Below, in pieces: positions 5,801 through 41,497 of a DNA stretch of 49,765 nucleotides. This stretch comes from Bdellovibrionales bacterium. Its GTDB lineage: Bacteria; Bdellovibrionota; Bdellovibrionia; Bdellovibrionales; UBA1609. The stretch lies in NCBI GenBank assembly GCA_007128005.1, contig SKYF01000177.1:1-49765 (forward strand). Reading direction: 5' to 3'. The notes beneath the pieces are model-generated. The model ran no database searches, was not told the DNA's origin, and saw nothing but the letters and a program-made list of their open reading frames with translations. Position 1 is the stretch's first letter. Each line of letters starts with the position of its first letter. Position numbers and translations under genes: made by a program.

Positions 5801-7117
5801 TCAAAGCTGACGAGAGAGAATCAGACCTTCGGCCTGGGCAAACTTCTCCGGAGCCACATACAACCGGTCAATAGTGCGAATTTCCTCATATTTTTTAAAA
5901 ATCTCTGTGCTGTCTTGAAGGCTGTAGGGCTGGGCCCTGCGGTCATATTGATCGACCACGTAGATCCCAAAGGGCTTTTCCTGGGGAGTCATCGTGTGAT
6001 ATTTACTCAGCCTTAGCTGAGAACTGGCCCAAATCACCTCGACCCCTTCAGATTCAAGGGCCTGGGCCATTTTCTCCGGTCGCTCCGTGGCCCTTGTAGA
6101 ATGCAGCTCAAAGAGCATACGAAAGGGCTTTCTCTCCGAAATCCTCCGAGCCCAGGGGTTGTCCACTGAAGCCAGGTGTTCAAAAAGAGCATAGTCTGTG
6201 CACTTGATGTACTCCTCAATCTCTGCTGGGAGAAAGAAGCTACAGTCCGGAGAAGTCAAATAACGACTCAAAATCTCTTCGTAGATGATGCCCTTGTGAT
6301 GAAAGTAGACCATCAAATGCATATGGTGCCGCGCTAACAGGAAATCATCAAAGGTATAAAGGGCTCTGCGATTGAGGGCCAAGTGGAGATTTCCATCCAC
6401 TAAATGCGAGCTCATGTTGGCCAGTAGCCACGACTGCTCCACTTTCCCATAATTGGTCCCACAAAAATAGGCATCCCTAGCCAAATAGTCCAGGCGATCT
6501 ACGTCCATCTCAGAGCTGATCAACTGACTGAGAATCACCCTAAAGTTGAAGCCCTGATCCAAAAAAAAATCATCTTCAACCTGCAAGCTCACATCTACTA
6601 AACAGGCAATGTGTTCTGGCCCAATATCGGGAAACTGGGCGCGCAAAATGGGGGTCAAGGAAGAGTCGGTGATAAATTTAATCGTGTAGTCCTCATGATT
6701 GGCTCTAGACTTCAAATCAGGTGCCCCCTGGCGCAAGCGATAGATTTCCACTCCAAGATCCCCAAGCGGGGGCATCACCTCTTCTGTGGTGTGAGACAGG
6801 GGACCATGGCCGATATCATGAAGCAGGGCTGCAAGCCTCAGCACCTGGCGCAGTCGCTGACGAACCTGATGATTGGAAAACTGAAAGTCCTTAAAAATAT
6901 GATCAAAGGCCACCGCAGCAAGATGGCAGACCCCAATCGAATGCAGGTAGCGGTTGTGAGTCGCCCCAGGGAAGCTGAATTCGGAAAAACCCAACTGCTT
7001 GATCGAGCGCAATCGCTGATAGGCCAAACTGTCCAAAACCGCCACCTCAGCCCGAGACAGCTCAATGGATCCATGAATGGGGTCTCTGATCTCCATATCC
7101 CCTTTTAGGCCTTTCAT
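5801..7117 (-). CDS. HD-domain (dGTPase/YdhJ-like) phosphohydrolase
   Basis: MEIRDPIHGSIELSRAEVAVLDSLAYQRLRSIKQLG, THNRYLHSIGV, LLHDIGHGPLSHTTE. Start may be 7096. Confidence 0.9.
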   Translation of the reverse strand: MKGLKGDMEIRDPIHGSIELSRAEVAVLDSLAYQRLRSIKQLGFSEFSFPGATHNRYLHSIGVCHLAAVAFDHIFKDFQFSNHQVRQRLRQVLRLAALLHDIGHGPLSHTTEEVMPPLGDLGVEIYRLRQGAPDLKSRANHEDYTIKFITDSSLTPILRAQFPDIGPEHIACLVDVSLQVEDDFFLDQGFNFRVILSQLISSEMDVDRLDYLARDAYFCGTNYGKVEQSWLLANMSSHLVDGNLHLALNRRALYTFDDFLLARHHMHLMVYFHHKGIIYEEILSRYLTSPDCSFFLPAEIEEYIKCTDYALFEHLASVDNPWARRISERKPFRMLFELHSTRATERPEKMAQALESEGVEVIWASSQLRLSKYHTMTPQEKPFGIYVVDQYDRRAQPYSLQDSTEIFKKYEEIRTIDRLYVAPEKFAQAEGLILSRQL

Positions 7118-7210
7118 CTCAAGGCGTCAAAAGCATTTTAGCCTGGCTCATCTTGGACTTACTCACTGCTTCAGGTTAGACTGTCGCCAAAAATGCCGAG
7201 GAGCGCAAAA

Positions 7211-8005
7211 ATGCAGACCTATCTCCAGCTCATGGAAAAAATCTTGAATGAGGGTGTCGACAGAGAAGACCGCACGGGTGTTGGAACGCTCAGTCTCTTT
7301 GGACACCAGATGCGCTTTGACCTGAGCCAGGGCTTCCCCCTAGTGACAACCAAAAAGGTTCATCTGCGCTCAATCATCCACGAACTGCTGTGGTTTCTCA
7401 AAGGCGACACAAATATCCAGTATTTAAAGGACAACAATGTCAGCATTTGGGACGAATGGGCTGATGCCGAGGGCAACCTCGGGCGAGTCTATGGGGCCCA
7501 GTGGCGCTCGTGGCGGGCACCTGATGGGCGCTGCATAGACCAGATCCAGCAGGTCGTTGAAGGCCTTAAAAATGACCCCTATTCCCGGCGTCACCTGGTT
7601 GTGGCCTACAATCCAGGTGAGATTCAAGAAATGGCTCTGCCTCCCTGCCACGCTTTTTTTCAATTTTACGTCGGAAAAGATCGGCTCTCCTGTCAGATGT
7701 ATCAGCGCAGCGCCGATGTGTTTTTGGGAGTTCCCTTTAATATCGCTAGTTACTCGCTTTTAACCTTAATGATGGCCCAGGTCTGTGGCTACAAACCCGG
7801 AGAGTTTATTCATACCCTTGGGGATGCCCACCTCTACTCCAATCACTTGGATCAGGCCCGACTGCAGCTCAGCCGCGAGCCTCGACCTCTGCCCCAAATG
7901 AAACTCAACCCTGAGGTCAAATCTCTCTTTGAATTTCGCTATGAGGACTTTGAGCTGGTGGACTATGATCCCCACCCTCATATCAAGGCAGAAGTGGCGG
8001 TTTAA
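7211..8005 (+). CDS. thyA: Thymidylate synthase (264 aa)
   Basis: [72 protein letters not shown] supports start at 7211 rather than 7193. Confidence 0.97.
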
Positions 8006-8006
8006 G

Positions 8007-8525
8007 ATGATTTTATCCCATATCGTGGCAGCAGCAAAAAATGGCGTGATCGGCAAAGACAACCAACTCCCTTGGCACATTCCCGAGGATCTGAAATTCT
8101 TTAGAGAAAAAACAAAGGGCAGGGCCCTTATCATGGGCCGAAAGACCTTTGAATCTGTGGGGCATCCCTTGCCTGATCGTCTCAATGTGGTGGTCACTCG
8201 TAACCCAGACTTCAAACAAAGGCATGAAAGTCCAGACTCCAAAACCCCCGTGCACGTGGTCTCCTCTTTAAAAGAAGCCATCGATTACTGCTCTGAACAG
8301 GTTCACCGCTACGGAGAAGAGGTGTTTATTATTGGTGGGGGGGAGATCTTTCGCGAGTCTATGAATATTGTTGATCTGATTTACCTAACGCGTATCCATC
8401 GAGATTACCCCGGCGATATCACCTACCCAGACGTAGATCCTCTGAAGTTTGAGGAGATCGAACGCCGGGACAGGAGCGAACCCACCGAATTCTCCTTTCT
8501 TACCTACTCGCGCAAAGACCTATAA
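8007..8525 (+). CDS. folA: Dihydrofolate reductase
   Basis: MILSHIVAAAKNGVIGKDNQLPWHIPEDLKFFREKTKGRALIMGRKTFESVG. Begins 1 nt after the thyA stop; the track's upstream start at 7929 is probably wrong. Confidence 0.95.
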   Translation: MILSHIVAAAKNGVIGKDNQLPWHIPEDLKFFREKTKGRALIMGRKTFESVGHPLPDRLNVVVTRNPDFKQRHESPDSKTPVHVVSSLKEAIDYCSEQVHRYGEEVFIIGGGEIFRESMNIVDLIYLTRIHRDYPGDITYPDVDPLKFEEIERRDRSEPTEFSFLTYSRKDL

Positions 8526-8582
8526 AATAAGAACATAAGTTGCCCTGCACCCCCTTTTCTACGGGACAAACACCTTGCAATC

Positions 8583-37151: not shown

Positions 37152-37790
37152 ATGCTCACAGAACGCCTGTACATAATTGCAGATCTAGGACACGATATCA
37201 CCCTGTGGATTCTAATAGGTTTAAGTGTGTTCAGCATCGCGTTTATGCTCGAACGTTGGCTCGTACTGCGCTCTGTAAAAAAAAATAGCCTTAAAGTCAG
37301 TTCGCGCCTCAGAGAATCCCTTCAGGCCAATAGCCTCAGTGAAATTGAAGACCTCAGCCGAGATCGAGAGACATTGGAGGGCAGGGCCTTAAACTATGGC
37401 TTGCGTCATGCTCGGGAGCACGGCTCTGAAGGCCTGGAGGAAATCTTTAATTCCTATGCAAATATGGAGCGACCCTACTTGGAAAAGTATCTTAGCTTTC
37501 TCGCCACCGTGGGTTCAAACGCCCCCTTTATAGGTCTGCTTGGCACGGTCTTTGGAATCATGGATGCTTTCAGGGCCTTGGCAGTCACTCAAGGTGATCC
37601 GGCAGCCGTGATGATTGGAATCTCTAAAGCGCTTATCGCCACTGCAGTAGGGCTGATGGTCGCCATCCCTGCAGTGATCTCCTATAACTATTTTCAGCGT
37701 CAGGTAAAATCTATCTTACAGAGCCTTGAGAGTGTCCGTGACATCTGCTTGGCCTATGCAAAAACCTATCGGCGGGGGGAGAGCTCCTAA
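37152..37790 (+). CDS. MotA/TolQ/ExbB proton channel family protein
   Basis: LEKYLSFLATVGSNAPFIGLLGTVFGIMDAFRALA...ISKALIATAVGLMVAIPAVISYNYF. Confidence 0.95.
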   Translation: MLTERLYIIADLGHDITLWILIGLSVFSIAFMLERWLVLRSVKKNSLKVSSRLRESLQANSLSEIEDLSRDRETLEGRALNYGLRHAREHGSEGLEEIFNSYANMERPYLEKYLSFLATVGSNAPFIGLLGTVFGIMDAFRALAVTQGDPAAVMIGISKALIATAVGLMVAIPAVISYNYFQRQVKSILQSLESVRDICLAYAKTYRRGESS

Positions 37791-38200
37791 TGGCCGCAAA
37801 GATTTCGGGCGACGATGAGCCCATATCGGACATCAATATTGTCCCCTTTGTGGACATTATTCTTGTCGTACTCATTATTTTTATGATCACGACCCCCTTT
37901 ATCATGCAGTCTCATATAAAAATTGACCTCCCTCAAGCGGCCAGTGGAGAAGATGGAACTCCAAGTGAATTCAATATCTCAGTGGCCTCAGATGGACGCA
38001 TTCTCCTGAACGGAGAGGTCAGCGACTTGCAAAGGGTCAATGCCAAATCCCAGGAGCTCAGTCAAACCAACCCTGAAGTGCAAGCCATCATCGCCGCGGA
38101 TCGAGAGGTCCCCCATGGACAAGTTGTCGAAGTTATCGATGCGGTGAAAACTGGTGGTGTCAAACGCTTTGCTATCACCATAGACCGCAAGCGCCAATAG
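37790..38200 (+). CDS. ExbD/TolR family protein
   Basis: ISDINIVPFVDIILVVLIIFMITTPFIMQSHIKIDLPQA; 1-nt overlap with upstream gene. Confidence 0.95.
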   Translation: MAAKISGDDEPISDINIVPFVDIILVVLIIFMITTPFIMQSHIKIDLPQAASGEDGTPSEFNISVASDGRILLNGEVSDLQRVNAKSQELSQTNPEVQAIIAADREVPHGQVVEVIDAVKTGGVKRFAITIDRKRQ

Positions 38201-38282
38201 ACCTTTAAAAAAAGTCAAAAATCAACAACAGCCCTCTAGACCTTTGGCCGACCCCTTTCCTGACAAGCAACAGGGGGAGCCA

Positions 38283-39527
38283 ATGGCAGATCTAAAAGAA
38301 CGGGGCCCAAGGGCCCAACAACGACTCAATTTGGGACAAATCTCTGATTCTCAGCTGAGCCTGCGAGTTGCGCGCAGCCGACAGGAGATGGAGGAAGCCT
38401 ATAAATTGTGCTTCGAAGCCTATGCACAAAAAGGCTACACCAGTAGGGTTGAGGAGGCTCTTGGCATGAGATTTAGCATCTACAATGCCTTGCCCACCAC
38501 CCTCACACTGATTGCCCAAGATGAAGGTAAAGTTGTCGGCACTCTCACTCACATTGTTTACTCCAGCCTTGGCCTCCCAACAGGAAAGATCTTTGACCTC
38601 CAGCACCTCTTACGACGCAGCCCCTACCTCTGCGAGGCCTCGGCCTTGGCTGTGGCTGATTCTCATCAAGGTCATGGAGGCCATGTCCTATTTCATCTTA
38701 TTCGTAACTACTTTGCTCTGTGCGAGGAATCCCAGGCGCTAGACCAATTGATTATCAGCATCAATCCCAGCCACAAGTCCTTCTACGAAAATATTCTTCT
38801 CTTTGATCGACTTGCAGAAGGCTGCCTCAAAAATGATTATGACTTTGTCTGTGGAGCTCCCGCCCTTGGAATGCAAATGCCCCTAGGGGAACTGCGAGGG
38901 CGAGTCCACCAGAAGTACGCTCACTTACCCAAAAAAGAAAATCTGTTTCATTTTCTCTTTGGTGGGACACTTTATAGTGAACGCCCATTCGTCCAAGATG
39001 GCTCTGCCAGCCCTCTTGTCATTGATACTCCAACGATGACTCCCGAAGACCTCTACCACTTCTTTGCTCAACTGAGATCAGATCTTGTTTTGAGTCTAAA
39101 GGAGCAGCACCAGTATTTCATACGTAGCAGCTATAACTTTCAAAATTATCAGAGTGTTTTTGATGAACTTGGACTATTAAAACCAAAACTCAGGCGCCAG
39201 TTACATAGATTTACCACCAACATACCCATCTTTTTCCTACTTACAGGACAGATCACCCAAGTTCGTAACGCCTCCCGTAGCCACCTTGCTGTCAAGAGAA
39301 CCAAGAGACTTGATGATTTCCCCCATTCTGGATTCACAAGAGCATTCATTGATCTGGGATCAAGGGGTCCAGTTGAACTCAACCTTAAACTGACCCAGTC
39401 CACTGAGCGAGATCTCGTCTTTGAGATCAAGAACCATAGCTCGGCCTGGGAGGCCTTTATGGATAAGACCGAAGCAATGTACTTGCCTTCTAAACGAGAA
39501 GGGCTCTACAATCTGAAAGTAGCATGA
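38283..39527 (+). CDS. GNAT-fold, FeeM/autoinducer-synthase-like N-acyltransferase with extra C-terminal domain
   Basis: LRVARSRQEMEEAYKLCFEAYAQKGYT, LTLIAQDEGKVVGTLTHI, EASALAVADSHQGHGGHVLFHLIRNYF...LIISINPSHKSFYENILLFDRL. SD GGGGGAG favours ATG 38283. Confidence 0.65.
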   Translation: MADLKERGPRAQQRLNLGQISDSQLSLRVARSRQEMEEAYKLCFEAYAQKGYTSRVEEALGMRFSIYNALPTTLTLIAQDEGKVVGTLTHIVYSSLGLPTGKIFDLQHLLRRSPYLCEASALAVADSHQGHGGHVLFHLIRNYFALCEESQALDQLIISINPSHKSFYENILLFDRLAEGCLKNDYDFVCGAPALGMQMPLGELRGRVHQKYAHLPKKENLFHFLFGGTLYSERPFVQDGSASPLVIDTPTMTPEDLYHFFAQLRSDLVLSLKEQHQYFIRSSYNFQNYQSVFDELGLLKPKLRRQLHRFTTNIPIFFLLTGQITQVRNASRSHLAVKRTKRLDDFPHSGFTRAFIDLGSRGPVELNLKLTQSTERDLVFEIKNHSSAWEAFMDKTEAMYLPSKREGLYNLKVA

Positions 39528-40306
39528 TCGATAGACAACTCTCCAATCTAAAGCCCTTGGTCGTGGACACGGCCACCTATAGCTCGCGCTACTATCGAAT
39601 TTCCTCTGATTTATTATTCATGCAGCGATCCCATTTTTGGCAGTCTCCTGCCTCTGAAATTGATGCTTTTCCTGACCTATGGACTCTCACTTTTTGTGAT
39701 TTTGAGCCGGGGCAGGTGGCTTTAAGAGCCAGGGGTAAAGTCCTTCCCCTTATAGGAAAAAACATTGTTTTTATCCCCAAGTTTAACCTGGTGGAATGGA
39801 TTCTTGGGACCGGTCATCTCAACTGGTCCTGTATACTTTCAAAAAATGACCCACCTACGACTGCCCCTCGGACAGCCTGTGTTTTTCCCTGGCCGAAAAA
39901 TCTGGACATCCTCAATCCCACTGATGTCCTCAACTGGCTGCAAAACGCCAACGCCCTCCTTCCCATTGATAAAATGGACAAGAGCTCTGTGGTGGCTGAA
40001 AGGACAAAGCAAGAGATCGACCAGAACTTTAAACAGAGTTTTAAGATTGGAGATGTAGCTAAAAAGCTCGGTTACCATCACTCCGTGATGGACAGAGAGT
40101 TTAAGTCCTGTTTTGGCATCAGCCCACTCACCTATCGCAACCGTCTGAGGGTCTTTGAGGCCCAAAGTCTTCTGTTATTTCAGTCATTGGATGTCAGTCA
40201 AACAGCTCAAACTGTGGGGTTTTGCGACTCCAGCCAATTGAGTCACCACTACAGAAGCCTCATAAAAGCCTCTCCGTCGCTGTTTAGGCCACTTAAGACT
40301 GACTAA
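39524..40306 (+). CDS. AraC-family transcriptional regulator
   Basis: C-terminal HTH: KIGDVAKKLGYHHSVMDREFKSCFGISPLTYRNRLRVFEAQSLL...DVSQTAQTVGFCDSSQLSHHYRSLIKASPSLFR; ATGA overlap with upstream gene. Confidence 0.88.
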   Translation: MIDRQLSNLKPLVVDTATYSSRYYRISSDLLFMQRSHFWQSPASEIDAFPDLWTLTFCDFEPGQVALRARGKVLPLIGKNIVFIPKFNLVEWILGTGHLNWSCILSKNDPPTTAPRTACVFPWPKNLDILNPTDVLNWLQNANALLPIDKMDKSSVVAERTKQEIDQNFKQSFKIGDVAKKLGYHHSVMDREFKSCFGISPLTYRNRLRVFEAQSLLLFQSLDVSQTAQTVGFCDSSQLSHHYRSLIKASPSLFRPLKTD

Positions 40307-40318
40307 AGATCCTTTTGC

Positions 40319-41497
40319 TTAAGCTCCGCTCTCCACTGCAATCTTGCCCATTGGATTTCTCAACACTTGGTCTGTTTTCTCCACTCGGCTGAGTCTTTCA
40401 TAGGGAAGAACTCTGCTGTTAAAAAGGGCAAAAAGCTCCTGGTCGAATTTGCTGGGGACAGATTGAGCGCTCAGAAGAACCAACTCAGCCCCCCGCCTCG
40501 AACAGGGCCTTGCCACAACTGCAAGCTCAGACTTTAAAGAACTCTCCTTTTCCAAGAGCAGCTCCTCCAAACACAGGTTCAACCGCATCAGGTTCACAAG
40601 CTCTCCACTGACTTTGATGGTCTGTTTCAGTCGACCCACAAAGCTCATCCGATCTTGAGACCAGAACTTGACTTGATCCTCGGTCTGATACCAGCTGTTC
40701 TGCTTGGGGTCCTGGGCAACAGGTGGCAGGGAACTCGCCAAGTCCACCTCCAGCTGAACTGTTAGGAGACTTGAGGACTTGATCTTCAAAACACTCTGTT
40801 CCGTTAACTCCCACTCCATATGTGACAGCCTCTTAAAAACTGGCAGACTGGAGTTGGCTTGAGCTCTCTCAATCCCTAAGGAGCTGAGCTCTGCTGTAGC
40901 CACCTGAGAGGCCGCCTCTGTCATTCCATAGCTGGGCAAAAGGGGCCAACCCAAGGCTCTGGCTCTCTTATAGAGACTCTCTCCTAGGGCTCCCCCTCCA
41001 ACCAGGACTGCTCTCAAACTATCAGGGGCTTGGCACCCCCCCTTCACCAAATCATAGACTTGAGTGGGAACAAGGGAAGTCAAGCTGACCCTATGATCTT
41101 GAAGGGCCTGAACAAAGCCCCGAGTCTCCCAAGGCCCTGGCCACAAAAAGGCCTGCACTCCGGACACCAAATAACTGCGGGCAAAAATGGACAGCCCTCC
41201 CACATGAAACAATGGCAGAGGACAGAGCCAGAGATCCTTTGACTGCACCTCAAGATGCCTATTGACGGCTTGAGCGGAGACTAAGAAAGCCTGACGAGAT
41301 AGGCCTACCAGTTTATAGACGCTTGGCCGAGTGGTACCTGAAGTGGCCAGCCATATCAGCTCTGGCCAAATCCTTCTCTGCTCTTCACTTCTCTCTGCGA
41401 TCTGCTCGCGAAGCTTGAGAGGCCAGTTGGGATTCAGCAAAAGGTGAGACCCCTTGCCCTCCCAGTCGACTGTGGGTGTTGTCAGAGAGGACCTCAT
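40319..41497 (-). CDS. menE: o-Succinylbenzoate--CoA ligase (AMP-binding)
   Basis: IWLATSGTTRPSVYKLVGLS, LPLFHVGGLSIFARSY, LPSYGMTEAASQVAT; location in men cluster. Confidence 0.88.
   Translation of the reverse strand: MRSSLTTPTVDWEGKGSHLLLNPNWPLKLREQIAERSEEQRRIWPELIWLATSGTTRPSVYKLVGLSRQAFLVSAQAVNRHLEVQSKDLWLCPLPLFHVGGLSIFARSYLVSGVQAFLWPGPWETRGFVQALQDHRVSLTSLVPTQVYDLVKGGCQAPDSLRAVLVGGGALGESLYKRARALGWPLLPSYGMTEAASQVATAELSSLGIERAQANSSLPVFKRLSHMEWELTEQSVLKIKSSSLLTVQLEVDLASSLPPVAQDPKQNSWYQTEDQVKFWSQDRMSFVGRLKQTIKVSGELVNLMRLNLCLEELLLEKESSLKSELAVVARPCSRRGAELVLLSAQSVPSKFDQELFALFNSRVLPYERLSRVEKTDQVLRNPMGKIAVESGA

Follow-up and report, generated by a model that had tools for sequence, protein, structure and literature searches.

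Does an acyltransferase gene that overlaps the gene of an AraC-type regulator encode a compact synthase-receptor couple, as the first-pass annotation of this locus had proposed, or a biosynthetic enzyme together with its own regulator? The locus lies in a 49,765-nucleotide stretch of a Bdellovibrionales genome (contig SKYF01000177.1; hereafter the window), where both open reading frames are on the + strand, flanked by exbD on one side and menE on the other and preceded by the ExbB/ExbD genes. The first gene (38283..39527, 414 aa) encodes a fusion of a FeeM-type acyltransferase with a divergent PilZ domain (NAS-PilZ), and the second (39524..40306, 260 aa) an AraC-family regulator. Because a Shine-Dalgarno sequence graded as strong, AGGGGGAG (38272..38279, + strand, read directly), precedes the ATG at 38283, this codon was preferred over the TTG at 38244 as the NAS start. 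The NAS stop (TGA, 39525-39527) and the AraC start (ATG, 39524-39526) share an ATGA that was read directly at 39524..39527 of the + strand, and the two reading frames and their overlap are thus as originally annotated. The explanation of the pair that we favour, to which we assign a probability of roughly 0.65, is that a gene for biosynthesis is accompanied by a regulator of its own.

Residues 38-199 of the enzyme (38394..38879, + strand) match the FeeM acyltransferase family PF21926 with an E-value of 4.4e-29 and 101.8 bits (cut-off 27). Pfam detected no other domain in the window enzyme, and PF21926 was matched by 25/25 relatives. An AlphaFold model was computed from an alignment of 40 relatives, all drawn from named genomes (mean pLDDT 71.6), and its top fold matches in the PDB were FeeM chains (2g0b, E 2.8e-10; target-normalised TM-score up to 0.82). 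The codon of Glu118 (38634..38636, + strand), the counterpart of the proposed catalytic glutamate, is invariant in all 25 relatives; it was equated with FeeM Glu95 and Nas354 Glu103 by the conserved motif, neither protein being part of the alignment. In Nas354 the exchange E103A abolished activity (PMC4897644). Judged by Pfam, fold search and the conserved glutamate, the window enzyme is a member of the FeeM-type N-acyl amino acid synthase (NAS) family, in line with its annotation as a FeeM-like acyltransferase, and its probable reaction is the acylation of an amino acid with a fatty acid; we infer both catalysis and substrate. The further label 'autoinducer-synthase-like' applies to the GNAT fold and no further. 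In the proposed structural comparison with FeeM and the LuxI type, FeeM was closest, whereas the acyl-homoserine lactone (AHL) synthase LasI followed far lower, at rank 46 (E 1.1e-5). The autoinducer synthase family PF00765 had no match in the window acyltransferase or elsewhere in its own genome, and control genomes were likewise without a match. An identity as LuxI-type AHL synthase was ruled out on these two grounds, the missing PF00765 match and the closer fold of FeeM.

The C-terminal part of the enzyme, described at first as an unassigned domain of about 150 residues, could be assigned as a helical linker of about 100 residues followed by a divergent PilZ domain. The linker (residues ~200-302, 38880..39188, + strand) is conserved in the family and helical in the model, and scored 34.5 bits with a family HMM built without the window sequence (best shuffle 8.9). 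For the PilZ region (residues ~303-400, 39189..39482, + strand), Pfam gave no match to PF07238 in the window copy, whereas this family is matched by 18/25 relatives in the alignment, and the family HMM built without the window sequence gave 31.8 bits (highest score among 2000 shuffles, 7.5); the assignment rests on these two results. The model of this region displays beta strands and a C-terminal helix (pLDDT mostly 75-90), and among PDB entries the family profile found the PilZ portion of cellulose synthase (E 1.5e-4). Homology with the relatives' PilZ domains rules out a new domain. Binding of c-di-GMP by PilZ domains involves the motifs RxxxR and [DN]xSxxG. Aligned with its relatives, the window copy is degenerate in both (RFTTN, 39207..39221; NASRSH, 39267..39284; + strand) and does not carry the signature of a c-di-GMP-binding PilZ receptor, while three relatives (L039, L042, L050) retain both motifs. 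Functional c-di-GMP control of the window copy is disfavoured by this loss, which is also why we regard its PilZ domain as probably a structural or protein-protein remnant.

The regulator carries a clear double helix-turn-helix DNA-binding domain of the AraC type (40016..40288, + strand; HTH_18, E 4.2e-15; HTH_AraC, E 1.7e-8). It is preceded by a family-specific N-terminal domain of ~155 residues (39524..39979, + strand) for which no Pfam family was found in any of 16 family members and no sequence match in the PDB, in agreement with its annotation as uncharacterised. Comparison with the classical AraC cupins by hhalign aligned a plausible short motif without significance (P 0.4), and a single-sequence AlphaFold model, made without an alignment, reached a pLDDT of 31.

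The pairing of the two genes was surveyed in 141 genomes of the order, in which 89 NAS-PilZ places (35/141 genomes) and 53 genes of this AraC family (AraC-N; 14/141 genomes) were found. A NAS-PilZ gene is located no more than 1.5 kb from 15/53 AraC-N genes (0.28 expected), and NAS-PilZ is present in 14/14 genomes with AraC-N as compared to 21/127 others (Fisher 3e-10). The excess spans seven genomes and both tandem and divergent orders: NAS precedes AraC in the window and in L049, L053, L055, L066 and L153, AraC precedes NAS in L039 and L044, and the two genes diverge in L034, L042, L047, L050, L154 and L155. The four-base ATGA overlap recurs in L153, a different family. For 14 pairs, the distances between the NAS proteins correlate with the distances between the AraC proteins (Mantel r 0.32, p 0.006; p 0.028 when permuted within genomes), and these tests, like those of co-localisation, count gene copies, sister species included, as independent, so that the evidence for linkage and co-inheritance is optimistic. 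In three orthologous AraC-NAS pairs, the NAS proteins and likewise the AraC proteins are each other's nearest neighbours. The diversity of arrangements is a stronger argument for coupling than the p-values, since with several gene orders and families a single inherited event does not suffice as an explanation.

These findings strongly support that the synthase-regulator couple is real and recurring, and the coupling claimed from the window sequence is thereby upheld. A 4-bp overlap in a single genome would prove little, and the two genes could in principle be housekeeping neighbours that are co-transcribed without a functional link; given the excess linkage, which involves seven genomes and tandem as well as divergent arrangements, the co-inheritance and the fact that both genes are present or absent together in the exbD-menE interval, we consider such chance adjacency very improbable. 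The last point comes from the sister species G001, in which exbB/exbD, menE and the remainder are kept in order (L180, compared with window positions 37152-41497), with a 716-aa ORF, overlapped by one that resembles a serine protease, in place of the NAS-AraC pair. Because the flanking synteny is retained without either gene, the pair seems to have been gained or lost as a unit.

The window NAS as a single query against the genome contigs retrieved no relatives, and a three-sequence NAS profile retrieved 80 loci, mostly of Betaproteobacteria; no AraC partner was present in two of these 80, the ones that were inspected. We found no description of the AraC-NAS family in the literature searched, in which few subscription papers were covered.

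The genes that accompany the two families point to a biosynthetic pathway. NAS with ThiF and a nitroreductase gives rise to acyl-oxazolones in the systems OxzAB, TyzABC and TrzAS (PMC10404671, PMC12856293). Within 2 kb of NAS we found ThiF at 23/89 places (0.38 expected) and a nitroreductase at 12/89 (0.27 expected); for AraC-N genes the corresponding numbers were 6/53 for ThiF (0.25 expected) and 11/53 for nitroreductase (0.20 expected), and methyltransferase genes adjoin the AraC-N family as well. The regulator belongs to a lineage-specific AraC family that is co-inherited with NAS-PilZ, acyl-oxazolone-type genes and methyltransferases, and probably governs the expression of those genes, its own operon included. 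In the genome of the window, which encodes three ThiF proteins in all, a second NAS-PilZ gene adjoins ThiF (L036) and an FDO-type nitroreductase-family oxidase is encoded away from the window pair (L174); the product of the window enzyme may be an end product or may be handed to a ThiF protein and an oxidase encoded elsewhere. Several observations weigh against the reading as biosynthetic gene and regulator. No ThiF, nitroreductase or methyltransferase gene adjoins the window pair, which lacks the layout of an acyl-oxazolone cluster (NAS with adjacent ThiF and nitroreductase); for 24/53 AraC-N genes no partner gene of the three kinds occurs at a distance of up to 3 kb, many of the contigs being short; and the regulator could act only elsewhere.

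Nor does an operator-like motif found at related loci occur upstream of the window NAS, which also counts against this reading. The motif, AAAAAACGCCTAG, lies in the intergenic regions that separate AraC from a divergent NAS gene in L042 (6758-6768 and 6804-6814) and L154 (3138-3148), two loci of different families, and AraC from a methyltransferase gene in L164 (2609-2619); it was spotted by eye in the first two, and L164 is its sole independent confirmation. Among 206 loci the looser pattern WWWWCGCCTAG was matched only seven times, and the intergenic regions of these three account for four of the matches. Because it is missing upstream of the window pair, we treat the motif as a lead rather than a result. 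Between 37000 and 40500 promoter-like sites occurred at chance level and terminator-like sites slightly above chance.

Further gene neighbourhoods were recorded. A large cluster (L040:328-14842) contains NAS-PilZ, two nitroreductases, ThiF and four AraC-N regulators together with a glycosyltransferase, a sugar dehydratase, a methyltransferase and two E2-like acyltransferases. In another family of the phylum (G347, L188:1934-7016) AraC-N adjoins a glycosyltransferase and a sugar dehydratase, similar to L040, and no NAS gene is present in that stretch. Directly upstream of the AraC-NAS pair of L044, a subtilase-like protein is encoded (6718-8574) that likewise ends in a PilZ-like domain. In Undibacterium terreum two NAS-PilZ genes in tandem follow the gene of a protein whose C-terminus is PEP-CTERM-like (L136:2953-7170), which agrees with the published NAS-exosortase link cited in PMC4897644.

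A signalling function could likewise account for the coupling: a released N-acyl amino acid or oxazolone would accumulate, be bound by the N-terminal domain of the regulator and shift the expression of its own operon or regulon. One-to-one pairing, the ATGA overlap, co-inheritance and several independent pairs per genome are as expected for such a module; AraC-type N-terminal domains of ToxT, Rns and HilD can bind fatty acids (PMC8329261, PMC10696396); and in other bacteria acyl-tryptophan intermediates are found mainly in the culture supernatant (PMC12856293). However, the N-terminal domain could not be placed in the AraC cupin fold, and the AraC family also adjoins oxidase, methyltransferase and other enzyme genes without NAS. 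Moreover, N-acyl alanine methyl esters of Roseovarius are placed outside AHL-mediated signalling in PMC11580390. We regard the module as unlikely. That the regulator senses the synthase product by whatever route is doubtful, and less likely than ordinary pathway control, the function of the regulator with the best support; the occurrence of the same AraC family next to ThiF, nitroreductase and methyltransferase genes fits the regulator of a biosynthetic pathway at least as well as a receptor. Direct regulation by the window protein, like any sensing of the product, is an inference. Several parallel synthase-receptor channels per genome, in which each NAS-PilZ product would be detected by the paired AraC, appear quite unlikely. 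If real, they would be lipid-signal circuits in multiple copies, of a class hitherto unrecognised and with a new sensing domain.

A lipid of the cell envelope or a surfactant offers another, tentative explanation, in which the product would be membrane-located or surface-active and the regulator would sense prey, membrane stress or nutrients. In L036 and L041, NAS-PilZ relatives are neighbours of ABC exporters and a LolA-like protein, the products of Nas354 are surfactants (PMC4897644), and the window pair comes after the ExbB/ExbD genes. The window's own pair is without a transporter, however, and the ExbB/ExbD neighbourhood is unspecific, as the sister species has it without the pair. In L036 (contig C106 of the same genome, 2945-9391), NAS-PilZ and ThiF are accompanied by genes for a LolA-like protein, an outer-membrane-like protein and an ABC ATPase and permease, the LolA-like and ABC exporter names having been assigned by eye; this is a possible cluster for lipid synthesis and export.

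Biosynthesis under its own regulator remains our preferred reading of the window pair. Some genomes of the group carry nine or more NAS-PilZ copies, and an AraC family travelling with the synthases provides a direct handle on them, as knowledge of its ligand and targets would make the role of the lipids testable. The family may also serve as a marker for mining related clusters in the group.

Among known systems, LuxI/LasI with LuxR resembles the window pair in the GNAT fold and in the synthase adjoining a regulator, but the window enzyme has no Autoind_synth match and its regulator is of the AraC and not the LuxR type. ToxT, Rns and HilD share with the window regulator the AraC-type C-terminal DNA-binding domain and a separate N-terminal domain, the latter not being demonstrably related. 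OxzAB, TyzABC and TrzAS combine an acyltransferase with a ThiF cyclase and a nitroreductase-family oxidase (PMC10404671, PMC12856293); many relatives of the window pair have such genes around them and the genes are dispersed in its own genome, whereas the acyltransferases described here carry PilZ and often have an AraC partner. FeeM itself (PDB 2g0b) belongs to PF21926 like the window enzyme, its solved chain of ~198 residues being without PilZ. Further counterparts are Nas343 and Nas354, NAS-PilZ fusions that produced N-acyltyrosines in E. coli (Thies et al. 2016; PMC4897644). They share with the window enzyme the FeeM-type domain, a linker of ~80-100 residues, the C-terminal PilZ domain, a length of ~400 aa and the glutamate, and differ from it in that the window copy has degenerate PilZ motifs. 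In the accessible part of the same paper no AraC partner is reported for either, and their genes were judged to lie outside a pathway operon. NAS-PilZ fusions themselves are thus already known, and the coupling to AraC is the new part.
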